Made by a program: the position numbers and the translations under genes
Notes under the pieces: generated by a model
Database searches by the model: none
What the model was told of the DNA's origin: nothing
What the model saw: the letters and a program-made list of their open reading frames with translations, nothing else
Part shown: one piece after another, positions 13,120-49,459 of the stretch
Numbering within the stretch: the stretch's first letter is position 1
Layout of the letters: every line of letters starts with the position of its first letter
NCBI GenBank assembly: GCA_030603385.1
Contig: JAUVXW010000001.1
Coordinates: 186,001 to 250,000, forward strand
DNA length: 64,000 bases
Reading direction: 5' to 3'
Source: Promethearchaeota archaeon
Lineage (GTDB): Archaea > Asgardarchaeota > Lokiarchaeia > Sigyniarchaeales > SOKP01

Positions 13120-13647
13120 TTGAGGAGAATGACAGAGTACGATTATACGTTCAAATTAATGATGTTGGGTGATGCTTCAGTAGGAAAAACATCACTCACT
13201 CTTAGATATATCTCAGGATACTTCAGGCAAGACTTAAAACTGACACTAGGGGTTGATTTCTATTCTAAAACAACACTCTTTAACGATAAGAAAGTTAAAT
13301 TACAAATCTGGGACTTTGGTGGTGAAGAACGATTCAGATTTCTACTTTCTCAATATAGTAAAGGAGCAAATGGTGCATTCTTTCTTTATGATATAACAAA
13401 TCCAATGAGCCTAGAACATTTACCCGAATGGACACAAATAGTTCGAGAGAATGCGGGAGACATCCCAATATTGTTAATTGGTTCAAAAAAAGATTTAGAT
13501 GAATTTCGAGCAGTTCCGCAAGAAGATGGAATATTAGCAGCTAAAAAATACAATCTTACTTCTTTCATTGAATTATCTTCGAAAACAGGAGAAAATGTTG
13601 AGAAAGCATTTGATGTATTGACTGAGTTTCTTTTTGAAGATTATTAA
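13120..13647 (+). CDS. Rab/Ras-like small GTPase
   Basis: GDASVGKTSLTLRY (G1), WDFGGEERF (G3), GSKKDLDE (G4), SSKTGENVE (G5). Confidence 0.95.
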   Translation: MRRMTEYDYTFKLMMLGDASVGKTSLTLRYISGYFRQDLKLTLGVDFYSKTTLFNDKKVKLQIWDFGGEERFRFLLSQYSKGANGAFFLYDITNPMSLEHLPEWTQIVRENAGDIPILLIGSKKDLDEFRAVPQEDGILAAKKYNLTSFIELSSKTGENVEKAFDVLTEFLFEDY

Positions 13648-13755: not shown

Positions 13756-14268
13756 ATGAATGAAGAAGAACCGCCTAGACCTAAAGGAATAGATGCAAAC
13801 ACTAAAGCACCTCAAATAGATACTGTAGATATTTATGAAAACCAAATTAATTTAAGTGAACTTCTCAAGGATTATGAGGGGGTATTAATAGATTTTTTTC
13901 GAGGGAACTGGTGAAGTCATTGTAAAACCCATTTAAAATTATTAACAGAAAATTTATCTGAATTCAAAAAGCGTAACATAAAAATTATCTCAATTGCAAG
14001 TGATAGTGTAAGGCTTCTGAGAACTTTTAAAGAAGAAAATAATTTTGAAGTCGATATGGTCTCTGATCGTGGCGCAAAAATAGCTAAAGAATATGATGTT
14101 TACTGGTTTGCCCCTGGAGGAGGAAAAGAATACAAAATAAAACAAGCAGTTCCAAGCAAATTTTTAATCGATAAAGATGGTATTATTGTATGGAAATATA
14201 TCGGTAAAGATAAAACAGATAGACCTTCCATTGAAATGATGACATCAATTATTGATGAATATTTATAA
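13756..14268 (+). CDS. Peroxiredoxin/thioredoxin-fold (AhpC/TSA-like) selenoprotein; UGA (Sec) at 13912-13914
   Basis: Manual frame: MNEEEPPRPKGIDANTKAPQIDTVDIYENQINLSELLKDYEGVLIDFFRGNW-U-SHCKTHLKLLTENLSEFKKRNIKIISIASDSVRLLRTFKEENNFEVDMVSDRGAKIAKEYDVYWFAPGGGKEYKIKQAVPSKFLIDKDGIIVWKYIGKDKTDRPSIEMMTSIIDEYL. The supplied ORF 14056-14268 is only its 3' end, in the same frame. The UGA sits at the peroxidatic Cys of an RGxWCxxC motif. Confidence 0.88.
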
Positions 14269-14289
14269 AATCCTAATTAAGAATGATTC

Positions 14290-14350
14290 GTGCGTGAAAA
14301 AATGAGACGCCCGAGGACGACCTTGCAAGGGGCGGGATTTAATCTTTTTT
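14290..14350 (+). promoter_or_regulatory. Candidate SECIS-like element in the 3'UTR of the selenoprotein gene
   Basis: Locally GC-rich hairpin in AT-rich intergenic DNA: ATGA (14302-14305), CGCCC (14308-14312) pairing with GGGCG (14330-14334), then GGAT (14335-14338 region) and a T-rich strand opposite an A-rich one. Order AUGA-helix-apical loop-helix-GGAU. Confidence 0.6.
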
Positions 14351-14429
14351 ATTTTTTTTAATAATTTTCTTAGAAAATTTTTTATTTGTCATTTATTATG
14401 TATTGCTCAAAACTTAGTTTACAAAATCT

Positions 14430-16088
14430 GTGAAAATTATGTTTAATCGAGCATTTAAAAACTTCTTGACTAAGAAACCTTCAAAAGTGGATTTATATCC
14501 ATATTTATATTCAATTTCTTTTGGAGAATTAGGAAAACCTAAAGAAGAGATTAGAACTGAACCAATTAAATGTAGTAATTGTGGTGCGATCTTCACTGAT
14601 ACTGACTTAATTCAAGTAGATTCACAAAAGGGTTCTTATTATGTATGCGAATTCTGTGGGACAATTAATACAATAGACAAATCTAAGATTGAGAAAAAGC
14701 TCCCAAATGACATAGATATTATTTTAATAGAAGCGTTAAAAAAAGGACCAAAAAAAGAAGAAAAGATAACAAAAATGGATAAAACTGAGGGAGATCTTTA
14801 TATTTCTGTAATCGATATCTCTGGTAGTATGAGTGGTGCTAAAATTGAAGCTGTTAAGAAATCATTAATTCAAACTTTAAAAGATTTCAAGATTAATTCT
14901 CCTTCCACTAAATACTTATTAATCGCATTTGAGAGCTCAGTTTACTATTATTTAAAACATGATAAAAATCCTCTTAACTTTAGTGGAGATTTACTCTTTT
15001 CTTTAGAAAGAATAAAAGATCAGTTGATTAAATCAATAAAAAAGGAAAAGTTTTTAGGTTCCATAGGAGAATTCGCTGATGGTTGGATAAGAAAAGTTGA
15101 AGATCTTAGATCGATGGATATGACCGCCTTGGGGCCCGCACTATATTTTGCAATTAATTCTTTTGAATTATTCAAACATACAGGAAGAATTACATTACTA
15201 ACTGATGGATTGGCAAATCAAGGGATAGGTAATTTATCTGGTACCAGTCCTGGTGCTGAAAAATTTTATGAAAATATGGCAGAATTATGTAATCAACACA
15301 AAATTATTGTTGATGTTGTAGGAGTATCAACTTCTGGAGATAATAATGAAATGGGGTTACAAACCTTAGGAAAACTCACAGATAAGACTGGTGGAACATT
15401 ATATTTAATATCAAGTGAAGAGATGGAAGAGATCTTCTCCGAACTTAGGCAAATGAGGTATATAGGAAAAGATGTAAAGGTTAAAGTTATTGTTCCCCCA
15501 AGCATTATTATCAAGAATATTACGGGAGCATACAGTTCTAAAAGTGCTATTAAAGGTTCTGAAATAAACTTAGGGGCAATTACAGAGGATAGAGAATTAT
15601 TCTTAGAACTAGAATCCGCTAAAGAACTAGTTGAAAAAGAAGAAGTTCCTATACAACTTCAAGTAGAATACATTGATAACGATGGTCGCAAAAGAATGAG
15701 AGTTATTAATGATCGGGTAAAGGTGACTAAAGATGAAAATAAATTTAAATCTCAATATAACCAGAAATTTAACGTTATGATGAATATTCAAACTGCCGGA
15801 CGGAGTTATTACGCAGGAAAAGCTAAAGAATCAAAAGCACGATTGAGAAGTTTAAGAGATGAAATGTTGGGTGAAATGAAACATTTAAAATCAGTTAATA
15901 TGACTTTCGCGGAAAAAGATTTTACTGAGGGATTAGCTTTTCTAGACGACGAATTAGAAGAAATTGAAATGGAAGAAGTAAAGGGAACTCAAGCACCCAC
16001 ACTGAGTTTTTTGGCTGTAAAAGGTCAAAAACGAGCAAGAATGTCATCAGGTGCCCTAAAAAAGCGGATGGAAAAAAAGAAAAAATAA
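14430..16088 (+). CDS. Sec23/Sec24-like protein: zinc finger + VWA (trunk-like) + beta-sandwich-like region
   Basis: PIKCSNCGAIF...YYVCEFCGTIN zinc finger preceding a VWA domain (LYISVIDISGSMSG, DMTALGPALYFA, ITLLTDGLANQG), then KVIVPPSIIIKNITGAYSS...INLGAITEDRELFLEL. Confidence 0.65.
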   Translation: MKIMFNRAFKNFLTKKPSKVDLYPYLYSISFGELGKPKEEIRTEPIKCSNCGAIFTDTDLIQVDSQKGSYYVCEFCGTINTIDKSKIEKKLPNDIDIILIEALKKGPKKEEKITKMDKTEGDLYISVIDISGSMSGAKIEAVKKSLIQTLKDFKINSPSTKYLLIAFESSVYYYLKHDKNPLNFSGDLLFSLERIKDQLIKSIKKEKFLGSIGEFADGWIRKVEDLRSMDMTALGPALYFAINSFELFKHTGRITLLTDGLANQGIGNLSGTSPGAEKFYENMAELCNQHKIIVDVVGVSTSGDNNEMGLQTLGKLTDKTGGTLYLISSEEMEEIFSELRQMRYIGKDVKVKVIVPPSIIIKNITGAYSSKSAIKGSEINLGAITEDRELFLELESAKELVEKEEVPIQLQVEYIDNDGRKRMRVINDRVKVTKDENKFKSQYNQKFNVMMNIQTAGRSYYAGKAKESKARLRSLRDEMLGEMKHLKSVNMTFAEKDFTEGLAFLDDELEEIEMEEVKGTQAPTLSFLAVKGQKRARMSSGALKKRMEKKKK

Positions 16089-48265: not shown

Positions 48266-49459
48266 TTGAGCATTCCAACTGAATTAATAAATCGTTATCC
48301 ATGGCTCCCATCGTTAAAAAAACATTATTCTGAAATTGCTTCAAGATCTCCATCTATGTTCATTTCCGAAGTATTTTCAAAAGACTTTGGGAGTGATTTA
48401 AAAGAAAGACTTTTAGATTTATTTGAAGCAGCTTTCGATAATTTGGAAGAAATTTCTGATTACAAAAGTGATAGGTTAAATGTATATGTATATTTATTAT
48501 TAAATATCTTTCTCTATGCTTTAGATAATCAAATGATTACTAATCGATTAGCCAATCTCTATTCTAAAATAACCTATAACGAGTTAATCAAAGAAAATAA
48601 TGATGCTAATCTCTATAACATATGCCAAGATCTAGGGTTAAAAATAAGGTATTATGAACCACCAATTAATTATGGCGTGAATATTGTAAAAGATCATCAT
48701 CAAAAACTTGAGACTAATTTCACAATTCATTTTATTGATTATTTAAGTCTTGCATCAAACTTAAGAGATGAATACAGAAAATTAGCACATAATTCTCTTT
48801 TAGAGGGTTATGTATTCATTCAAAACAAAAGACTAATTCGTCTAATTCAAGAATATGTAAGAAATAAACTTCTTATTAAAGAAGCTGAGGATAAAGAATC
48901 ATTAAAAGCATTTTTAAAAGAAGTTTCAGATATTAAAGATTTCAAAGAGATACTTGAAAAAGTTTTAAATACGTGGACAGAACGAAAAGAAGAGTTTGAA
49001 TACACATTTAAAATTAATTTTGAAAGTGAAACAGAATTATTAACATTATTTCCTCCATGTGTAAATGAAATACTGAAGAAAACACAAGAAGGCCAAAATC
49101 TAATTCATAACGAAAGGCTTTTTATTGTTTGGTTTTTACTTGCTCTTGAATATCCCGTGGAGAAGGTTGTGGATTTATTTTCAACATTACCTGATTTTAA
49201 CAGAGAGAAAACTACCTACCAAGTCAATTATGCAAAAAAGAAAAATTATATTCCATATAAATGCTTAACATTAAAGTCTCTAAATTTATGCTTAGCCGTA
49301 AAATATAAGGATGAGCTATGTTTAACTGGTTATGGTTCAGTTGAACCTAGTGAAAGAAAAAAAATAGCTCATCCCTTATTTTATACTCGGATAAAGAAAT
49401 ATAGGGCCTCTAGAGATGAGAATTACAAAAAAAAAGAATTAGCCAAAGAAAATGAGTGA
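48266..49459 (+). CDS. priL: DNA primase large subunit PriL
   Basis: Between PCNA and PriS; FPPCVNEI and downstream Cys-containing FeS-region residues. Confidence 0.9.
   Translation: MSIPTELINRYPWLPSLKKHYSEIASRSPSMFISEVFSKDFGSDLKERLLDLFEAAFDNLEEISDYKSDRLNVYVYLLLNIFLYALDNQMITNRLANLYSKITYNELIKENNDANLYNICQDLGLKIRYYEPPINYGVNIVKDHHQKLETNFTIHFIDYLSLASNLRDEYRKLAHNSLLEGYVFIQNKRLIRLIQEYVRNKLLIKEAEDKESLKAFLKEVSDIKDFKEILEKVLNTWTERKEEFEYTFKINFESETELLTLFPPCVNEILKKTQEGQNLIHNERLFIVWFLLALEYPVEKVVDLFSTLPDFNREKTTYQVNYAKKKNYIPYKCLTLKSLNLCLAVKYKDELCLTGYGSVEPSERKKIAHPLFYTRIKKYRASRDENYKKKELAKENE

Follow-up and report, generated by a model that had tools for sequence, protein, structure and literature searches.

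A lokiarchaeal Prx-like gene with a conserved in-frame UGA and a 3′ UTR SECIS element that carries an additional covarying helix

Does the UGA codon that interrupts an otherwise open frame in a lokiarchaeal genome end a truncated gene, or is it read as selenocysteine (Sec)? The window analyzed here, a stretch of 64,000 nucleotides, is part of contig C4 in a 3.9-Mb assembly, and its forward strand carries a 170-residue frame for a Prx-like protein with a TlpA/ResA-type active site (positions 13756–14268). The frame opens with ATG at 13756, contains a single in-frame TGA at 13912–13914, and closes with TAA at 14266–14268. The TGA is codon 53, in the context FFRGNW-U-SHC-KTHL, where it forms the first position of a WUxxC motif whose second redox position, Cys56, lies at 13921–13923. 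Standard ORF calling recovers 14056–14268 alone (70 amino acids). The initial annotation had described both the 170-codon frame broken solely by this TGA and its reduction by automatic calling to the last 70 codons, and the coordinates and translation bore this out on each point. Reassignment of the genetic code was rejected, because UGA is the ordinary stop codon for 9 of the 50 larger ORFs in the window. The flanking genes encode a Ras-family GTPase (13120–13647) and a Sec23/Sec24-like protein (14430–16088), both of eukaryotic signature type, and the neighbors also include an Rce1-like protease; the neighborhood gives no functional link.

A homolog search across 228 genomes of the phylum (E ≤ 1e-18) yielded 60 sequences from 41 Asgard genomes. 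Every one contains at least one in-frame TGA, and in all 60 a TGA occupies the first position of the WCxxC motif. The initial annotation had staked its reading on Asgard relatives having Cys or Sec at this column, and the Sec codon is what they uniformly have. At the fourth motif position, the codon is TGT in 22 homologs, TGC in 18, and TGA in 20, so roughly two thirds of the proteins would be UxxC and one third UxxU. The tree places between 4 (forced by starred branches) and 6 Cys/Sec switches at this second redox site, and such exchange follows the pattern expected of a Sec site. Neighboring UxxC and UxxU genes occur in tandem in G013, G014, and G018 (L056, L063, and L061), and tandem copies of the gene are also present in G160 and G161. 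The genome itself contains a second copy, 50% identical, with a TGA at the equivalent place (L002/L089), and the closest named records that carry the gene all come from Lokiarchaeota/Lokiarchaeia metagenome-assembled genomes. When the window gene was compared with six relatives, pN/pS was 0.16–0.46 before the UGA and 0.13–0.18 after it, indicating strong purifying selection downstream of the codon. The 70-residue product of standard ORF calling would fit a pseudogene or a sequencing error, with UGA 13912 acting as a true stop and the product being a 52-residue fragment or the internal 70-residue ORF. Against this reading stand the TGA shared by 60/60 homologs, constraint past the UGA that equals or exceeds that before it, a conserved SECIS, and encoded Sec machinery. 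The conserved TGA column and the low pN/pS beyond it mean that neither chance nor sequencing error accounts for the TGA; the conserved codon and the conserved frame beyond it refute the pseudogene reading, to which we assign a negligible probability.

The initial annotation was also conditional on Sec machinery in the genome and had named tRNA-Sec, SepSecS, EFSec/SelB, and SPS; the first three were found, and SelD (SPS) was not found in this assembly. The gene for tRNA-Sec is located at C41:48216–48304 (63 bits against a cut-off of 47), and that for SecS at C41:48516–49673 (TIGR03531, 487 bits against a cut-off of 225); the SecS frame itself starts near 48321, shortly after the tRNA-Sec end at 48304. 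EFSec was identified with TIGR00475 and a PDB search as a 475-residue frame at C41:41842–43266. It scores under the NCBI family cut-off, and its best PDB match is the archaeal SelB 4ac9 (E 3.8e-87), with eEFSec and EF-Tu ranking lower; PF21208 matched neither this protein nor the controls. The three genes are clustered within 8 kb (G000:C41:41842–49691, L214), and they supply the minimum of at least three Sec-machinery genes per genome used by Huang 2024. A PSTK-like kinase candidate on C1 has an E value of 5e-43 and falls below the NCBI cut-off. SelD was sought in the 94%-complete assembly with TIGR00476 and then with the SelD of a congener, and neither search located it. The candidate L117 was rejected as a paralog that scores below the TIGR00476 cut-off and lacks a SelD-like Sec/Cys motif. 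All 10 congeners searched encode SelD with an in-frame TGA of its own, nine of them in two copies, and the absence from the present assembly is likely due to an assembly gap.

The 3′ UTRs of the homologs were searched for a helix flanked by an [A/G]UGA ... [G/A]A quartet. In 54–55 of them, the search returned one shared architecture, consisting of AUGA, a helix always nine positions long, an 11–12-nt loop that starts A-rich, and GA. On the 3′ side of the quartet, almost every homolog has a further short hairpin, helix III (AACCUUGCAAGGGUU or a variant of it). The arm 3′ of helix III pairs with nucleotides immediately 5′ of AUGA, and the resulting helix I, which encloses helices II and III, in many cases extends into the 3′ end of the ORF. 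In the window, the 5′ arm of helix I (AAUCC, 14269–14273) directly follows the stop codon. The 5′ side of the quartet, AUGA, is at 14283–14286; helix II (14287–14315) has nine positions with one U.C mismatch, its arms at 14287–14295 and 14307–14315 enclosing an 11-nt A-rich apical loop (14296–14306), and the 3′ side of the quartet, GA, is at 14316–14317. Helix III (CGACCUUGCAAGGGGCG, 14318–14334) lies directly 3′ of the quartet and is abutted by the 3′ arm of helix I (GGAUU, 14335–14339). A T-rich stretch at 14340–14360 is the probable transcription end.

Support for this structure came from homology and covariation. In alignment A1 (n = 54), 79% of cells were paired, compared with 67% after shuffling and at most 49% in slid versions, and double changes occurred at all nine pairs of helix II. 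RNAalifold on the same 54 sequences predicted helix II only, so that, in this set, the pair counts are what supports helices I and III; helix I, misaligned between subgroups, is 61% paired. The minimum free energy (MFE) structure of 14269–14349 is exactly the three-helix form (−14.3 kcal/mol). This energy is not unusual (z about 0); since shuffled sequences fold equally well, it is no evidence for the element, and the support is covariation and homology. An Rfam scan of the 3′ UTR gave chance matches only. A covariance model (R2) built exclusively from other genera, with none from the window's genus and with helices II and III as its only marked structure, found a single site in the 64-kb window, at 14267–14349 (70.9 bits, E 4e-13). 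The expectation of a eukaryote-like 3′ UTR SECIS in this lokiarchaeal Sec gene was thus supported, as was its conservation in relatives, with the core placed elsewhere than first drawn and the element having three helices. The initial annotation had proposed a hairpin in which ATGA at 14302–14305 accompanies a CGCCC/GGGCG helix. These letters can pair, and the MFE structure of 14269–14360 includes that pairing, but this ATGA sits inside the apical loop, about 20 nt 3′ of the real AUGA, and the CGCCC/GGGCG pairing (14308–14312 with 14330–14334) is in competition with both helix II and helix III. The quartet falls at 14283/14316 according to the alignment columns, the covariation, and two covariance models, making the earlier hairpin highly improbable as the SECIS.

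The frame, the conserved UGA with selection beyond it, the machinery genes, and the conserved RNA fold make the gene and its recoding near certain on sequence grounds, and from them we infer, with high confidence, that the window gene is functional and encodes a selenoprotein, its UGA being read as Sec by means of the 3′ UTR SECIS. Its transcript would span the ORF and the 3′ UTR, and at UGA 13912, EFSec would deliver Sec-tRNA-Sec to an mRNA marked by the SECIS, the mark consisting of the AUGA/GA kink-turn quartet, helix II, the A-rich loop, helix III, and the enclosing helix I. Translation would then continue to UAA 14266, immediately 5′ of helix I.

Whether helix III belongs to this mark was examined with frhD genes, which were picked throughout the phylum on the basis of protein homology and whose SECIS elements were located by the quartet and helix II alone, helix III not being used. 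When RNAalifold was run without any input structure on 14 frhD genes of other families and classes, it predicted helices II and III; in the same 14, these helices contain 93.7% and 88.8% paired cells, respectively, with compensatory changes. The 23 frhD genes from the window's own family have a shorter, weaker helix III (64.5% paired). The recurrence in frhD indicates that a conserved hairpin beside the quartet is a feature of Asgard SECIS elements beyond the window gene. The hairpin could instead be a transcription terminator that precedes a T run and lies outside the SECIS, as the T-rich stretch closely downstream in the window might suggest. However, helix III is fixed 1–2 nt from the quartet GA, the 3′ arm of helix I intervenes before any T run, and frhD genes of other classes carry the helix as well, with compensatory changes and in several cases with no T run (for example, L250 and L253). 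Archaeal terminators are, in addition, generally T-rich and require no hairpin. The terminator explanation is accordingly improbable, and we continue with helix III as part of the SECIS.

The published Asgard SECIS model consists of a core, an upper stem, and an apical loop (PMC11227280), and a review describes SECIS elements with one apical loop (PMC9499178). No mention of an extra helix was found in the main text of PMC11227280 or in PMC9499178, the two sources to which the comparison extended. Of the published type I features (a GA_[G/A]A core, an upper stem of 7–15 bp with at most two mismatches, and a loop of 8–20 nt), the window element has AUGA_GA, nine positions with one mismatch, and an 11-nt loop; it departs from the single apical loop of a two-helix element, its helix III being supported by covariation. 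By sequence, the window SECIS consists of the known eukaryote-like core and one more covarying helix. It shares with eukaryotic type I elements the AUGA/GA quartet, helix II, an A-containing apical loop, and a 3′ UTR location, but differs in the extra helix, which lies inside the 3′ side of the internal loop. In contrast to the eukaryotic system, no SBP2 is known in archaea, nor is any other SECIS-binding protein (PMC11227280). Asgard SECIS elements have been used in arguments on the origin of eukaryotic Sec. For the decoding of a 3′ UTR SECIS by archaea, which have no known SBP2, the covarying helix III offers a defined target for mutagenesis and a handle for isolating the binding factor. Its presence may also partly account for two earlier results: SECISearch3 gave no significant match in Asgard selenoprotein genes (PMC11227280), and a lokiarchaeal vhuU SECIS was non-functional in Methanococcus maripaludis (PMC11881835).

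What kind of protein the gene encodes was addressed by profile and fold comparisons. The product matches PF00578 (AhpC-TSA) with 85.7 bits against a cut-off of 26, and its AlphaFold model (pLDDT 88) has a thioredoxin/Prx fold whose best fold matches are PrxQ/Bcp. The best PDB sequence match of the profile is ResA (E 9e-21), with both redox positions aligned and Bcp close behind. The peroxiredoxin signature PxxxT/SxxC is absent from FFRGNWUSHC and from the column alignments, and the TlpA/ResA features W52-U53-xx-C56 and a Pro133 that is invariant in alignment A2 (VPSxF, as in TlpA/Trx) are present. These features favor a thiol-disulfide oxidoreductase or coupled peroxidase, which we regard as the probable identity, over a classical peroxiredoxin. 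The initial annotation had placed the UGA at the catalytic Cys of a Prx-like motif; it does replace the first Cys of a WCxxC, in an active site of TlpA/ResA type without PxxxTxxC. The protein might instead be a genuine peroxiredoxin in which Cys56 is peroxidatic and Sec53 only resolving, as the PrxQ/Bcp fold matches and the alignment of Cys56 with the peroxidatic Cys of 2cx3 would allow. The missing signature, the WCxxC with its invariant Pro133, and the ResA match all tell against this assignment, which we consider rather unlikely. The oxidoreductase reading would make the product a soluble thioredoxin-fold protein in which Sec53, at the place of the nucleophilic Cys of the ResA/TlpA CxxC, forms a redox pair with Cys56; most likely, it would act as a thiol-disulfide oxidoreductase or reductant-coupled peroxidase that protects an anaerobe. 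ResA/TlpA proteins share the WCxxC at a helix N terminus and the Pro before the facing strand, whereas the window protein has Sec for the first Cys, and neither a signal peptide nor a membrane anchor is obvious in it.

Prx-like (PrxL) selenoproteins of Asgard archaea were reportedly described by Mariotti in 2016. They have also been reported by Huang 2024 (PMC11227280), and the window protein can be assigned to this known family by family features rather than by direct identity with published PrxL sequences: an AhpC/TSA domain, a conserved redox column with in-frame UGA, an eSECIS-like 3′ UTR element, and the machinery. Window gene and published family have in common an AhpC/TSA-type fold, Sec in a redox motif, occurrence in Lokiarchaeia, and a type I eukaryote-like SECIS (AUGA_GA, A-rich loop, 3′ UTR). 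The UxxU members and tandem UxxC/UxxU pairs of the present set are not mentioned in the PMC11227280 main text, and the SECIS model given there lacks the helix III seen in the window. Bacterial Prx-like thiol:disulfide oxidoreductases with UxxC/UxxU and PF00578 are listed in PMC13188914. These and the SelL-related proteins (NF040769) likewise combine UxxC and UxxU motifs with a Prx/TlpA fold, but have their SECIS in the coding region, whereas the window gene is archaeal and has it in the 3′ UTR. The window protein matches NF040769 with 53 bits, below the cut-off of 120.

A second covariance model (R1), trained on the Prx-like 3′ UTRs and including helix III, was used to search for SECIS elements irrespective of the gene upstream. 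It gave seven matches at E < 1e-6 in the same genome and many in congeners. Sixty matches outside the Prx-like genes were examined by reading: 32 lie behind hdrA/frhD, three behind vhuU, two behind selD, two behind a HesB-like ORF, and 18 behind small membrane ORFs, and three were unassigned. As hdrA/frhD, vhuU, selD, and HesB-like proteins are known Sec families, these results suggest that R1 is specific. The 18 small membrane ORFs, with in-frame UGA and SECIS, are of three kinds. For the representatives tested, neither Pfam nor NCBIfam gave a reliable match, and pN/pS beyond the UGA is about 0.4–0.65, modest support for ORFs that are short, hydrophobic, and found through a model containing helix III. 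PMC11227280 gives seven Asgard selenoprotein families, and these three kinds are not among them, suggesting, as a lead rather than proof, three small-membrane selenoprotein families absent from published Asgard lists. A model containing helix III finds selenoprotein genes without a Cys homolog as query and so points to ones that earlier surveys could not see. A broader proposal, which we hold to be evenly balanced, is that Asgard SECIS elements constitute a separate class built as a three-helix junction, where helix III, held 1–2 nt from the kink-turn quartet, would serve as an essential surface recognized by an archaeal SECIS-binding factor, and that the SECIS-first search exposes at least three unreported small-membrane selenoprotein families in Lokiarchaeia.

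The first kind of small membrane ORF has a single TM segment and a UGA in the tail that follows it, often preceded by GG (...GG-U-[AG]C), with a SECIS behind each (L111 at G000:C20:5914, L175, L154, L157, L170, L179, L180, L189, and L198); its architecture is reminiscent of eukaryotic SelK/SelS. The second is also single-TM and mostly Asp-rich, with a Cys just ahead of the UGA (CxU, CxxU, and similar) and a SECIS (L172, L181, L196, L165, L151, and L194); L172, L181, and L196 have a conserved tail past the UGA. The third has two TM segments with [AS]-UGA at the end of TM1, Gly usually next, and is found as tandem copies, each followed by its own SECIS (L184, L173, L182, and L205); L184 (G014:C99) has three SECIS in 1.3 kb, and L173 (G012:C27) has two. 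Strong SECIS elements with a longer loop lie behind an ORF of about 300 residues that belongs to no known family (L113 at G000:C53:12131, and L209). The HesB-like ORFs (L202 in G032 and L204 in G028), from another family of the order and outside the published Asgard selenoprotein list, combine an SUCG motif with a SECIS.
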